Shown here: piece after piece, positions 21,201-24,878 of the stretch
How positions within the stretch are numbered: position 1 is the first letter of the stretch
Layout of the letters: each line of letters starts with the position of its first letter
NCBI GenBank assembly: GCA_017449215.1
Contig: JAFSJY010000052.1
Coordinates: 1-40,240, forward strand
DNA from: Acholeplasmatales bacterium
GTDB taxonomy: Bacteria > Bacillota_I > Bacilli_A > Acholeplasmatales > Anaeroplasmataceae
DNA length: 40,240 nt
Direction of reading: 5' to 3'
Notes under the pieces: model-generated
Told to the model about the DNA's origin: nothing
Seen by the model: only the letters and a program-made list of their open reading frames with translations
Database searches by the model: none
Position numbers and translations under genes: made by a program

Positions 21201-21276
21201 GGTCCCTTGGTGGAACGGCTAACACGTCTCCCTCTCAAGGAGAAGATTACGGGTTCGAAACCCGTAGGGACTACCA
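21201..21276 (+). tRNA. tRNA-Glu (anticodon CTC)
   Basis: The 76-base sequence folds as a cloverleaf. The acceptor GGTCCCT/AGGGACT has one G-U, the anticodon stem is TCTCC/GGAGA with loop CTCTCAA (anticodon CTC), the T arm is ACGGG-TTCGAAA-CCCGT, the discriminator is A, and CCA is encoded. It reads GAG. It is a single-gene transcript with its own promoter and terminator. Confidence 0.95.
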
Positions 21277-21328: not shown

Positions 21329-21604
21329 TTAAATTGTTTTAGCAACTAATGTTAAGCCAAGAGGTTTCATAATTTTGATTAATGTCTCAACTTTAGGTTT
21401 AACAGCACATGATTCGATTCTTGCAACTGATGAATGAGGAAGACCGCATATATTGGCTAATTCTCTCTGAGAAATACCCATTTCATTTCTTCTTTCAATG
21501 ATTGCACTAATAATATGAGCCAATATTTCCATTTCTTCAATATCATCTTTTATATCATTATTAATCTTCTTTATATCTTTTTTAAAGTCTTCCCATGTCC
21601 TCAT
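21329..21604 (-). CDS. XRE-family helix-turn-helix protein (HigA-like, orphan)
   Basis: This 91-residue protein has a charged helical N terminus (1-30) and then an XRE helix-turn-helix, ISQRELANICGLPHSSVARI with SCAVKPKVETLIKIMKPLGL. The layout is that of HigA-type antitoxins. No RelE/HigB-like toxin gene is found on either side, so it is an orphan regulator or a remnant of a toxin-antitoxin pair. It has a good promoter of its own (21715-21687), and about 180 bases separate it from the palindrome array. Whether it acts on the array is unknown. Confidence 0.8.
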   Translation of the reverse strand: MRTWEDFKKDIKKINNDIKDDIEEMEILAHIISAIIERRNEMGISQRELANICGLPHSSVARIESCAVKPKVETLIKIMKPLGLTLVAKTI

Positions 21605-21782: not shown

Positions 21783-22077
21783 GGTCACAAGTTGTGACCT
21801 AATTATGCTTTTATATTAGCTTTATTATTCGAGCAGTCTGCTCGAATATTCTATTAGTTAAATTCCTCTCACATGTTGTGAGCTAATTAATTTTATTAGT
21901 ATTGCCATTTGGTCAACAGCTTGTTGACTAATTTATTTGTCAACAATTTTGCAGTAAGTTGCTGCAAAAATCCATTGTTTTCAATTATGTCGCAACTTGC
22001 GACATAATTAATTATATTAGTATTTTGTCACCAACTTGGTGACTAATTCATACTTTTCTATTCATATCAAACTTGAT
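21783..22077. repeat. Array of eight divergent palindromes at 37-46-base spacing
   Basis: The gap between the XRE gene and the DUF1016 gene has no open reading frame but eight palindromes, by arms: GGTCACAA/TTGTGACC (21783-21799), ATTCGAGCAG/CTGCTCGAAT (21827-21847), CTCACA/TGTGAG (21868-21882), GTCAACA/TGTTGAC (21912-21928), TTTTGCAG/CTGCAAAA (21947-21969), AATTATGTCGCAA/TTGCGACATAATT (21983-22009), GTCACCAA/TTGGTGAC (22027-22043) and ATCAA/TTGAT (22066-22077). Centres are 46, 38, 45, 38, 38, 39 and 37 bases apart. Most have TTTG or TTG at the left and TAATTA or TAATT at the right. The arms differ and the design is shared. A ninth copy lies in the DUF1016 coding sequence. Not CRISPR: there is no constant repeat. 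Confidence 0.88.
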
Positions 22078-22089
22078 GGCTAATTATTT

Positions 22090-23061
22090 CTATTTATTTT
22101 TTTCATTTAATCTCTTTTCTAGATATTCAGGTAATTCTTCTATTATCTTATATTTAGATATACCTAGTTTTAATGAACTTTTATTTAATGATGTCTTTGC
22201 TACATAATTGTCTGCATCCTTACATAGTAATAAGCCTATAGTGTCATTGTCACCTTCAGTTCTTTCTAAATCATCTATGGCATTTACATAAAATATTAAT
22301 TGTCCTAAATCTGCAGGATTAAATTCACCAATCTTAATCTCTATTACTACATATGCATGTATTTTTGTATGATACATCAATAAATCTATATAAAATTCCT
22401 TTCCTGTTGGTGTTACTAATTTATACTCTTTTCCAAATAAAGAAAATCCAGGTCCTAATTCATTTAATAATTTAATGATATTATCTATCATTTGATTCTT
22501 TAAATCCTTTTCAGTCTTTAAATTATTCTTATCTATGAAATCTAATACAATTGTATCCTTAAACATTTCTTTTAATGTATCATCTGATTTTACTACTTCG
22601 GTTGTATCAGGTTCTATTAATGATCTTTCATAAGCCTTCATTTCTATTTGGTTTAATACCATCGCTCTTGACCAGCCATATTTATGTGTGGCATTTATAT
22701 ACCATAACATTTCTTTATGAGATTTAGATTTACTCATAATCTCAATAATTGTTCTCCAAGGAATTTGTGCACCAGGTTGGTGCATAATTTCATCTTCATT
22801 AAAATTTTCAGCAAACTGACTCATATAATGTAGATTTCTAGTAGAATAACTATTCCCATATTCTTTTAAATCATTAGCTAGGTTCTGTATATATTTTGAG
22901 CCCCATGTCTTCCTCTGATTGATAATAGTACCTATCTCATAATAGGTCATTATCATTTGACTATTAACATAAACCATTGCTTTATTTTGATTTTGTCTAA
23001 TAGTCTCCTTAATTTTGTTTAAATCATTAAAATAATCTTTTTCTAGTATTTCTTTATTCAT
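22090..23061 (-). CDS. DUF1016/YhcG-like PD-(D/E)xK nuclease-domain protein
   Basis: The product is about 323 residues. The N-terminal DUF1016 domain (about 10-160) includes TYYEIGTIINQRKTWGSKYI, STRNLHYMSQFAENF, QIPWRTIIEIM and WYINATHKYGWSRAMVLNQI. The C-terminal nuclease-like domain has FYIDLLMYH with D226 and VVIEIKIGEF with E241-x-K243, the PD-(D/E)xK core. Family members are linked to DNA cleavage and restriction systems, but the exact role is unsettled. GGAGG 8 bases upstream selects the ATG at 23061 over one at 23094. Codons for M93-H-Q-P-G-A98 form a 17-base DNA palindrome of the same design as the eight just 3' of the gene. No restriction-modification genes are adjacent. Confidence 0.9.
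   Translation of the reverse strand: MNKEILEKDYFNDLNKIKETIRQNQNKAMVYVNSQMIMTYYEIGTIINQRKTWGSKYIQNLANDLKEYGNSYSTRNLHYMSQFAENFNEDEIMHQPGAQIPWRTIIEIMSKSKSHKEMLWYINATHKYGWSRAMVLNQIEMKAYERSLIEPDTTEVVKSDDTLKEMFKDTIVLDFIDKNNLKTEKDLKNQMIDNIIKLLNELGPGFSLFGKEYKLVTPTGKEFYIDLLMYHTKIHAYVVIEIKIGEFNPADLGQLIFYVNAIDDLERTEGDNDTIGLLLCKDADNYVAKTSLNKSSLKLGISKYKIIEELPEYLEKRLNEKNK
22768..22784. repeat. Ninth palindrome, inside the DUF1016 coding sequence
   Basis: TGCACCAGGTTGGTGCA on the plus strand is a perfect 7-3-7 palindrome flanked by ATTTG on the left and TAATT on the right, the flanks seen in the downstream array. In the coding frame it covers the last two bases of Met93 through Ala98 (M-H-Q-P-G-A), just before Q-I-P-W. 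The closest array members are GTCACCAACTTGGTGAC (22027-22043) and GTCAACAGCTTGTTGAC (21912-21928). Confidence 0.9.
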
Positions 23062-23189: not shown

Positions 23190-24878
23190 TTATAAATTAT
23201 TAATTAATCTATTAATTCTTTCGAATACCTTATCCTTACCTAAGATTCTTTGAACAAAGTAAATATTAGGTGTATTCTTTCTACCAGCTAATGCTAATCT
23301 TAAGAAACCAGCACAATCTCCAGCTTGTCCATTAAAATCATTTGGATTTGCTTTATATGCCTTTCTATCAGATGTGAAATTATATTTAGCCGCTACAGTC
23401 TTTAAATTTTCAAACCATTCTTCTTCTGTAACATCTACATTATATGAATTCATATAATCATTTAAGAATGATTTAATAACATCATGAGCTACTTCCTTAG
23501 TCTCATTCTTATTTACCATAACTGTATAATCTAAATTAGACATATCTAAATTATTATATACATCATCAAAGAAGAATGAAATAATTGGATAAATATCAGA
23601 ATACTTAGCATAATCCTTTCTAGGCTTATCCTTTTCTCTTTCAATATTTAAAATATCAGTAAAGAATTTCTTATCCTTTAAAATTTCAGCTTCAAATTCT
23701 TTATTATATTCATTAGCCCAAGTTAAAACCTCTTCACATAGGTCAGCTGCTTTTCTATAAGCCATTCTTTCTTTTGAAATTGATTCTACCTTTTCAATAT
23801 CGAATAAGGCACCATCAACGCCCATCTTATCAAATGAAAGCTTGAAATCAAAGTAATCCTTATCTAGATTTTGTTCTCTCCAAGCTTCGTAATTAGAATT
23901 TGCTAATGTTAATAGATATTCAATGAAGCCGTACTTAGGATAACCTTGCTCTAAGAAGAATGCAGTTGCAGCCTCAGGGTCCTTTCTCTTAGAAAGCTTT
24001 CTTCTATTACCATTTTCTACCTTCATAATTACAGGAAGGTGTGCATACTTTGGTCTTTCAAATCCCATTGTATCAAATAATTCAAGATGGATAGGTAAGC
24101 TTGATAACCATTCCTCTCCTCTTGTTACATGAGTTGTTCTCATGAAGTGATCATCAACTAAGTGAGCGAAATGATATGTAGGAAGTCCATCTCCCTTTAG
24201 GATAACTATATCCTGATCATTTTCTGTTAATTCAAGGTCTCCTTTAATTTCATCATGAACAGCAATCTTATTATTATGGTCACCCATAGATTTAAATCTA
24301 ATAATATAAGAATCTCCATTCTTAATCTTAGCTATAGCCTCATCGATAGGTAAATTTCTATATTTTGCATACTTGCCATAATATCCAGGAATTTCCTTAT
24401 TAGCCTCTTGAACCTTTCTTAATTCAGCAAGCTCTTCCTGTGTTGCGAAGCATGGATATGCTCTACCAATCTTAATTAAATGCTTAATGCATACCTTATA
24501 AATATCAGCTCTATCTGATTGCTTATAAGGACCATAGTTACCTATTTCTTCTGAATCAGATACATAACCCTCATCTAGAATTACACCAAACTTCTTTAAT
24601 TGTGTAACTAGTGAAGCACCAGAACCTTCAATTTCTCTTTTAGTATCTGTATCCTCAAGTCTAATATAGAATACACCACCAGATTGCTTAGCAAATCTAG
24701 ATGACACTAATGAAGTAAATAAGCTTCCTGTATGTAAAAATCCTGTAGGTGATGGTGCGAATCTTGTTACCATAGCTCCTTCAGGTAAATTTCTCTTTGG
24801 ATATCTCTTTTCTAAATCTTCTACTGTCTCTTTAATATCTGGAAATATTAATTCTGCTAAATCATTATAATTTGACAT
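23190..24878 (-). CDS. gltX: Glutamyl-tRNA synthetase
   Basis: This is a 562-residue class I aminoacyl-tRNA synthetase. RFAPSPTGFLHTGSL (near 39-53) holds the HIGH-type motif, and RRKLSKRKDPEA (near 293) is the KMSKS loop. GEEWLSSLPIHLELF marks the GluRS/GlnRS catalytic domain, followed by the helical anticodon-binding part. The N-terminal extension of about 35 residues and the total length fit the longer GltX form of some Firmicutes. It charges tRNA-Glu with glutamate in the cytosol, and through an amidotransferase possibly tRNA-Gln. It stands alone between two terminators; tRNA-Glu lies 2 kb away on the other strand. Confidence 0.95.
   Translation of the reverse strand: MSNYNDLAELIFPDIKETVEDLEKRYPKRNLPEGAMVTRFAPSPTGFLHTGSLFTSLVSSRFAKQSGGVFYIRLEDTDTKREIEGSGASLVTQLKKFGVILDEGYVSDSEEIGNYGPYKQSDRADIYKVCIKHLIKIGRAYPCFATQEELAELRKVQEANKEIPGYYGKYAKYRNLPIDEAIAKIKNGDSYIIRFKSMGDHNNKIAVHDEIKGDLELTENDQDIVILKGDGLPTYHFAHLVDDHFMRTTHVTRGEEWLSSLPIHLELFDTMGFERPKYAHLPVIMKVENGNRRKLSKRKDPEAATAFFLEQGYPKYGFIEYLLTLANSNYEAWREQNLDKDYFDFKLSFDKMGVDGALFDIEKVESISKERMAYRKAADLCEEVLTWANEYNKEFEAEILKDKKFFTDILNIEREKDKPRKDYAKYSDIYPIISFFFDDVYNNLDMSNLDYTVMVNKNETKEVAHDVIKSFLNDYMNSYNVDVTEEEWFENLKTVAAKYNFTSDRKAYKANPNDFNGQAGDCAGFLRLALAGRKNTPNIYFVQRILGKDKVFERINRLINNL

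Follow-up and report, generated by a model that had tools for sequence, protein, structure and literature searches.

Why does a nuclease gene carry a palindrome within its coding sequence, and why do related palindromes stand in a row behind its stop codon? The question is raised by positions 21,783 to 23,061 of a 40,240-nucleotide (nt) stretch from an Acholeplasmatales bacterium (assembly GCA_017449215.1, contig JAFSJY010000052.1; hereafter the window), where a DUF1016/YhcG gene contains the palindrome TGCACCA-ACC-TGGTGCA. We infer, with a probability of about 0.8, that this in-gene palindrome is the DNA-binding site of the protein encoded by the same gene. A sequence-only reading had taken the array behind the gene as a donor store that rewrites six residues of the protein, and had listed sites bound by the protein as an alternative. 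It is this alternative that the evidence favours. The gene and its internal features are as follows (bases are numbered from the palindrome centre).

22090-23061, minus strand: DUF1016/YhcG nuclease gene, assigned by Pfam, PADLOC, AlphaFold2 models and PDB comparison; predicted ParB/Noc-like DNA-binding domain at residues about 34-148, predicted PD-(D/E)XK nuclease domain at residues 163-317
22663-22961, minus strand: codons 33-132, predicted ParB/Noc-like double helix-turn-helix region, from VIA-align matches
22825-22839, minus strand: codons of the reading residues Arg74, His77 and Tyr78 at the start of recognition helix 73-85 (helix in the AlphaFold2 model); couplings 74 with +7, 77 with +8 and +9, 78 with +5
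22768-22784, minus strand: in-gene palindrome TGCACCA-ACC-TGGTGCA, putative binding site of the gene's own product; centre at 22776, 18 nt before the Trp101 codon
22744-22758, minus strand: codons of the invariant Trp101, the reading residue Arg102 (W+1, the top column) and Ile105, at the start of helix 101-110
22663-22668, minus strand: codons of the reading residues Arg131 and Ala132 at the start of helix 131-139; 131 couples with base +3, 132 with base +2

A palindrome at a fixed codon position

The palindrome was compared across 264 usable DUF1016 genes, obtained by scanning genome contigs and genomes drawn from three phyla. The comparison sample comprised one genome per species, the genomes of the same genus being drafts, and its phyla were Bacillota, Bacteroidota, Pseudomonadota, Cyanobacteria, Spirochaetes and Chlamydiae, plus one archaeon. 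The genome of the window itself gave six matches, namely the gene, three more copies at full length (79-86% identical) and a further one in two halves, while the genus-mates gave 0 to 26, the latter in G021 (G, C and L numbers denote genomes, contigs and loci). Nearly every copy in the genus carries a palindrome at the same codons, with arms that differ yet remain complementary (TGCACCA..TGGTGCA, CGCAGCA..TGCTGCG, GCCAACA..TGTTGGC, TGTCGCA..TGCGACA, TCTCACA..TGTGAGA and GGGCACA..TGTGCCC). The encoded hexapeptide accordingly varies between copies, as the sequence-only reading had it.

The same place is occupied in most of the 264 genes, frequently by arms of 12-18 nt, such as ggaatttgtgcagacGGTgtctgcacaaattcc in L058. 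Of the 194 odd-centred sites, 186 have their centre exactly 18 nt ahead of the invariant Trp codon. At least seven of the eight inner pairs were complementary at the fixed position in 64% of the 264 genes, as compared to 1.9% after synonymous recoding with each gene's own codon usage. In L063 and L130, the palindrome persists although its right arm falls in another reading frame. This persistence and the excess over synonymous recoding therefore indicate a constraint on the nucleic acid, not on the peptide. Among 1050 arm pairs at +3 to +8, 39 were mismatched (10 G-U, 13 A-C and 16 other), which is a DNA signature without an RNA wobble bias. Since an RNA stem would favour G-U pairs, and these are not in excess, the constrained molecule is very probably DNA rather than RNA. 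The long palindrome was essentially confined to DUF1016 loci in 20 genomes.

Several loci carry more than one such palindrome. In-frame tandem copies of the site occur inside the DUF1016 genes of L115, L129, L106, L110, L111, L302 and L312, the inner bases often being the same and the outer ones different. In L046 (G021:C39) and L047, partial DUF1016 copies follow one another in tandem, and the arms of the palindrome differ from copy to copy. Furthermore, one copy in the genome of the window is split by a group II intron-like element about 14 nt after the palindrome (G000:C64 end, L037:2560-2809; G000:C54 start, L036 reverse, first 140 nt), and the same element lies behind a terminator hairpin in L055 (about 6070). 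A hairpin-seeking intron may thus target the palindrome. Rfam found no family in L036, L037, L055 or L042.

A residue–base code in the N-terminal domain

The half-site triplet at +2 to +4 was compared with each of the 294 protein columns, and position-by-position couplings were corrected for background. The residue after the invariant Trp (W+1, residue 102) ranked first of all columns, with an excess information of 1.32 bits (z 26.6). GT at +2 and +3 goes with Ser (33 of 33), TGC with Phe or Tyr (20 of 23) and TGG with Arg (8 of 9). At residue 74 and base +7, Arg is found with C (83/83) and Gln with G (12/12). Residue 78 pairs Tyr with T (81/82) and Arg with G (35/40) at base +5, residue 77 couples to +8 and +9 (Lys with C at +9 in 65/65), and residue 132 places Arg with G at +2 (57/57). 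Other strong couplings outside the palindrome's own codons include 131 with +3, 102 with +2 to +4, and 105 with +4. None of these seven residues (74, 77, 78, 102, 105, 131 and 132) is encoded by the palindrome. Each gene's palindrome matches the reading residues of its own protein.

The sequences are related, so that the couplings are not independent events, which weighs against a binding code; hold-out and close-pair tests address this kinship. When the half-site was predicted from the seven residues with training proteins less than 40% identical, the true site ranked in the top 5% of 95 half-sites for 85% of 175 genes. At an identity cut-off of 50%, where the code reached 86%, random variable columns gave 36% on average and 48% at best. 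Among close pairs, defined as at least 65% identical elsewhere, residues 74, 77, 78 and 102 differed in 25% of cases when the site was the same, and in 72% when the site was different, whereas the other residues differed in 24% and 27%, respectively. An independent exchange of the 17-nt cassette and the reading residues was dropped on the basis of these close-copy differences (72% versus 27%). The couplings 102/+4, 74/+7, 78/+5 and 77/+8 persist (P <= 2e-4) among 37 relatives that share 50% identity or more with the window protein, while 132/+2 and 105/+4 are not significant there and residue 131 hardly varies.

The code also located sites away from the usual place. For the 72 genes without a palindrome at that place, a blind search spanning 5 kb put the best match to the predicted site 18-170 nt before the Trp codon in 43, all in frame, as compared to 2.4 by chance and 15-18 with the residues of random other genes. 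Residue 73 (codon 22840-22842), which adjoins the reading residue 74, is the most variable in the clade and has no clear coupling to the site.

The AlphaFold2 models have a predicted confidence (pLDDT) of 85 for the whole protein and 92 for residues 1-149. Residues 74, 77 and 78 lie at the start of helix 73-85, residues 102 and 105 in helix 101-110, and residues 131 and 132 in helix 131-139, while the stretch coded by the palindrome is a loop that leads up to Trp101. In both models, residues 2-48 fold into a single long helix; the CTP-binding (ParB/Srx) domain of ParB was not found, and the ParB family gave no match to the N-terminal domain even at E 10. In the PDB comparison, the nuclease domain most closely resembles NucS/EndoMS (2vld; Z 12.1, 106 residues, root-mean-square deviation 2.4 Å). 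With VIA-align, the N-terminal domain matched the Noc-NBS complex 6y93 (Z 9.1, 103 residues, 3.6 Å), Noc 7nfu (8.9), ParB 6sdk (8.5) and Spo0J 1vz0 (7.2), and the next unrelated row after these four had a Z of 6.0; the absence of other families in this comparison is no evidence. The fold comparison by itself moderately supports a helical ParB/Noc-like DNA-binding domain that would read a short palindrome, and the residue–base code points the same way. Judging from the helix positions and the likeness to ParB/Noc, the reading residues probably lie on one face.

In the working that we propose, the protein very probably binds the in-gene palindrome as a dimer, whose ParB/Noc-like N-terminal domains would read both half-sites through residues 74, 77 and 78 of the recognition helix, 102 and 105 of the next helix, and 131 and 132 of a second helix-turn-helix. 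The hexapeptide would be a mere by-product of the site, coded where the protein has a tolerant loop, immediately ahead of the conserved Trp. In a copy that acquires a new specificity, the site and the reading residues would change together. The likeliest use of such binding may be feedback: the protein on its own gene would limit its own transcription or the activity of copies, so that a dangerous nuclease stays scarce and each paralogue remains under its own control. Autoregulation is supported by second sites with the same arms, just upstream of the gene in L066, L084, L086, L095 and L098 and downstream in L089, L113 and L042, and by the confinement of the palindromes to DUF1016 loci; we put even odds on binding restraining the gene's own expression.

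Several observations weigh against this interpretation. Some members of the family have no recognisable site. A second site at the promoter is absent from most genes, and the window gene has no upstream site, which tells against autoregulation in particular. The Z scores of 7-9 are moderate for a helical domain. Foldseek alone found nothing significant for the N-terminal domain, so that ParB/Noc was pointed to only by the second look with VIA. Finally, the nuclease could instead cut its own site.

The downstream array and rival explanations

The array (21783-22080) comprises seven or eight further palindromes in the gene's orientation behind its stop codon:

22063-22079, minus strand: degenerate unit ATCAA-GT-TTGAT
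22027-22043, minus strand: GTCACCA-AGT-TGGTGAC, a perfect palindrome
21988-22004, minus strand: TGTCGCA-AGT-TGCGACA, arms equal to the in-gene site of the own-genome copy on contig C64
21949-21971, minus strand: TTTTGCAG-CAACTTA-CTGCAAAA, with an imperfect core
21912-21928, minus strand: GTCAACA-AGC-TGTTGAC
21867-21883, minus strand: GCTCACA-ACA-TGTGAGA, right half that of the own-genome copy on contig C41
21829-21845, minus strand: TCGAGCA-GAC-TGCTCGA, putative specificity of the genus-mate copy L051
21783-21799, minus strand: GGTCACA-ACT-TGTGACC, putative specificity of the genus-mate copy L026

Perfect CA..TG palindromes with 5+2-nt arms are represented by the gene's site and five array units, with about 0.2 expected in the whole window, and none was found elsewhere in the window. 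A 477-kb sample of the same genome contained four such strings, which is the background level, and none resembled these sites. The gene's site and the array thus form one palindrome family, as the sequence-only reading had recognised.

The array units do not carry the specificity of the neighbouring gene. Scored with the gene's own reading residues, its own site reached 17.8, the best for this protein, while the array units ranged from -37 to 6 (little weight attaches to the score of the degenerate unit at 22063). The unit at 21867 scored 10.8 with the reading residues of the C41 copy, the best of all genes, and that at 21829 scored 19.6 with those of L051. In the window and L042 together, 8 of 18 array arms equal some in-gene arm of the clade (P 0.018). 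None of the units has the ACC/GCC centre of the gene, and none equals its site. As judged from these sequences, the array is a cluster of sites with sister-copy specificities, not those of this gene, and the units are probably relics or cross-binding sites.

A second array (L042:946-1400, G008:C32) has at least 10 sites directly behind a DUF1016 stop codon. It consists partly of 24-nt tandem units that share AAATT, and one unit has the right half of the L042 gene's own site.

The peptides that had suggested a cassette store (I-M-H-Q-P-G-A-Q-I for the minus-strand reading of the in-gene palindrome) were reproduced exactly for the gene and all eight units. It had also been argued that the CAA core forces the central Gln but not the rest. 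This needs amending at position 6, where the codon must begin with G for symmetry with the CA of CAA; accordingly, any random palindrome encodes V, A, G, D or E there. Compared with random palindromes, the array did give a better fit to the family motif (65.0 versus 9.1 ± 11.5), but its fit was no better than that of palindromes drawn from the base frequencies of in-gene arms (P 0.08) or real in-gene arms (P 0.61). Because it does not exceed these DNA-level controls, the likeness of the array peptides is a likeness of DNA sites rather than of peptides.

This result bears directly on the proposal that the gene receives copies of array units, which would rewrite its hexapeptide. The common palindrome family and the shared arms described above are what such copying would leave, but the reading residues 74, 77, 78 and 102 lie outside the site and change along with it, and a swap of 17 nt alone would break the match because the residues matched to the site lie outside it. 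Moreover, the array centres are unlike the gene centres, two of the eight units contain a stop codon, the site stays palindromic with its right arm in another frame (L063 and L130), and many DUF1016 genes of other phyla have a site without an array. We therefore regard the donor store as barely credible. A dispersed selfish repeat, similar to REP or Rickettsia palindromic elements and sitting in the gene by chance, would account for the palindromes between genes near DUF1016 (in the window, L042 and L130). The sequence-only reading had named a palindromic repeat family as another alternative, but such palindromes are absent from the 477 kb of the same genome and, in most of the 20 genomes, from DNA away from DUF1016 loci; with the codon position fixed across phyla and the residue code, this leaves the explanation hardly any weight. 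Selection on an RNA hairpin in the mRNA, for translation control or RNA processing, is in keeping with a palindrome that is transcribed and would fold, and with array units that keep the gene's orientation. It seems very improbable to us, as G-U mismatches are not in excess over A-C, the couplings fall on the starts of predicted DNA-binding helices, and a code symmetric about the dyad fits double-stranded DNA and a dimer.

The remaining explanation shares the binding but differs in its outcome: the protein would bind its own site and cut there, and recombination would repair the resulting breaks, whether in its gene or in sister copies. Gene conversion, tandem partial copies, leftover sites in arrays and fast changes of specificity would all be driven by such a self-addressed nuclease. 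The nuclease motif residues D225, E240 and K242 are conserved, the 26 matches in G021 include tandem fragments, in-frame tandem sites lie inside the genes of L115, L129 and L302, the array adjoins the gene, and the reading residues change fast. Nevertheless, the gene of an apparently active nuclease retains an intact site, which would amount to self-destruction unless the site is protected, and most genomes have one or few copies. We consider self-cutting unlikely, and favour binding of the protein to its own in-gene site.

Related systems, RhuM and the surrounding locus

In Bacillus subtilis, a parS site lies inside spo0J itself. ParB/Noc with parS/NBS resemble the DUF1016 system in the predicted fold, the short palindromic site, and the small number of specificity residues, placed on the recognition helix and on another helix after it; in ParB/Noc, these are four residues (R173/Q, 179, 184 and G201/R; PMC7383237). 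In contrast to ParB/Noc, DUF1016 has an attached PD-(D/E)XK nuclease, a CTP-binding domain was not found in it, and each gene has its own, often unique, specificity inside the coding sequence, with many specificities in the family. A local recognition code has been derived for LacI-type regulators from sites kept near the regulators' own genes (PMC2978694). That study sought sites in the intergenic DNA beside the gene, whereas the DUF1016 site lies inside the coding sequence of its reader, which is a nuclease. PARCELs, which are palindromic coding repeats (PMC2996958), and Rickettsia palindromic elements are alike in that palindromic DNA is read as protein, in tandem in some genes. They are described as coding repeats or inserts spread over different genes, while the DUF1016 site is short, occupies one codon position and is matched by a reading domain; no PARCEL-like insertion in unrelated genes was seen in the sampled DNA, and the palindrome of RhuM differs and has its own helix couplings. 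REP/RAYT elements occur in many copies dispersed between genes, unlike the DUF1016 palindromes in the 477 kb and in most of the 20 genomes. In the open-access literature searched, there was no earlier description of a DUF1016 self-site or recognition code.

Of 31 loci with RhuM (Virulence_RhuM, PF13310; L357-L386 and L130:3146-4198), 30 have a long palindrome whose codon position is fixed. In 29 usable genes, a small and related sample, residues 61-66 (L130 numbering), by inspection the likely recognition helix, account for most of the strongest couplings outside the palindrome codons. RhuM is thus a second family, unrelated to DUF1016, with an apparent self-site, and the shared pattern points to a general design. 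Tentatively, the two families might belong to a general class of self-addressed genes, in which the main genomic site of the product lies within the coding sequence just after the codons of the reading helix, the protein acts on its own locus and its copies (copy control, self-cutting or homing), and specificity and address evolve as one linked unit.

In the Legionella locus L130 (3020-5640), the intergenic DNA that separates DUF1016, RhuM, a hydrolase and an integrase-like gene contains palindromes whose arms have changed in a compensatory manner, and two of these palindromes lie within direct repeats of about 75 bp that flank RhuM.

With these results, a large nuclease family of unknown function gains a predicted binding site and a residue-to-base code that simple binding assays can test. 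The 95 distinct half-sites paired with their readers are a natural set. The reader and its site lie within about 100 bp, and therefore offer a ready-made system for studying the evolution of DNA-binding specificity. DUF1016 can also reveal why defence-island proteins retain their targets within the very genes that encode them.

The gene at 22090-23061 matched PF17761 (DUF1016_N, E 1.9e-33) and PF06250 (YhcG, E 4.5e-46), both well above the cut-off, and PDC-S02 (E 2.6e-96), a single-gene phage defence candidate of PADLOC. A search of PDB sequences found no relative of the DUF1016 protein. The gene has a PD-(D/E)XK core with conserved acidic residues and a lysine: D225, E240 and K242 were invariant in a first alignment, and D225 and K242 were at least 90% conserved in a second. 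The locus is a small variable region between a tRNA gene (21201-21273), a helix-turn-helix gene (21329-21604) and a gene at 23190-24878, named glutamyl-tRNA-synthetase-like by inspection of its translation; Rfam found two tRNAs and nothing else in the window. Defence-type genes adjoin some relatives, namely HsdM/HsdS (L078 and L108; some relatives lie between both), a CARF protein (L083) and HamA (L060), and these neighbours fit a putative defence role of DUF1016.
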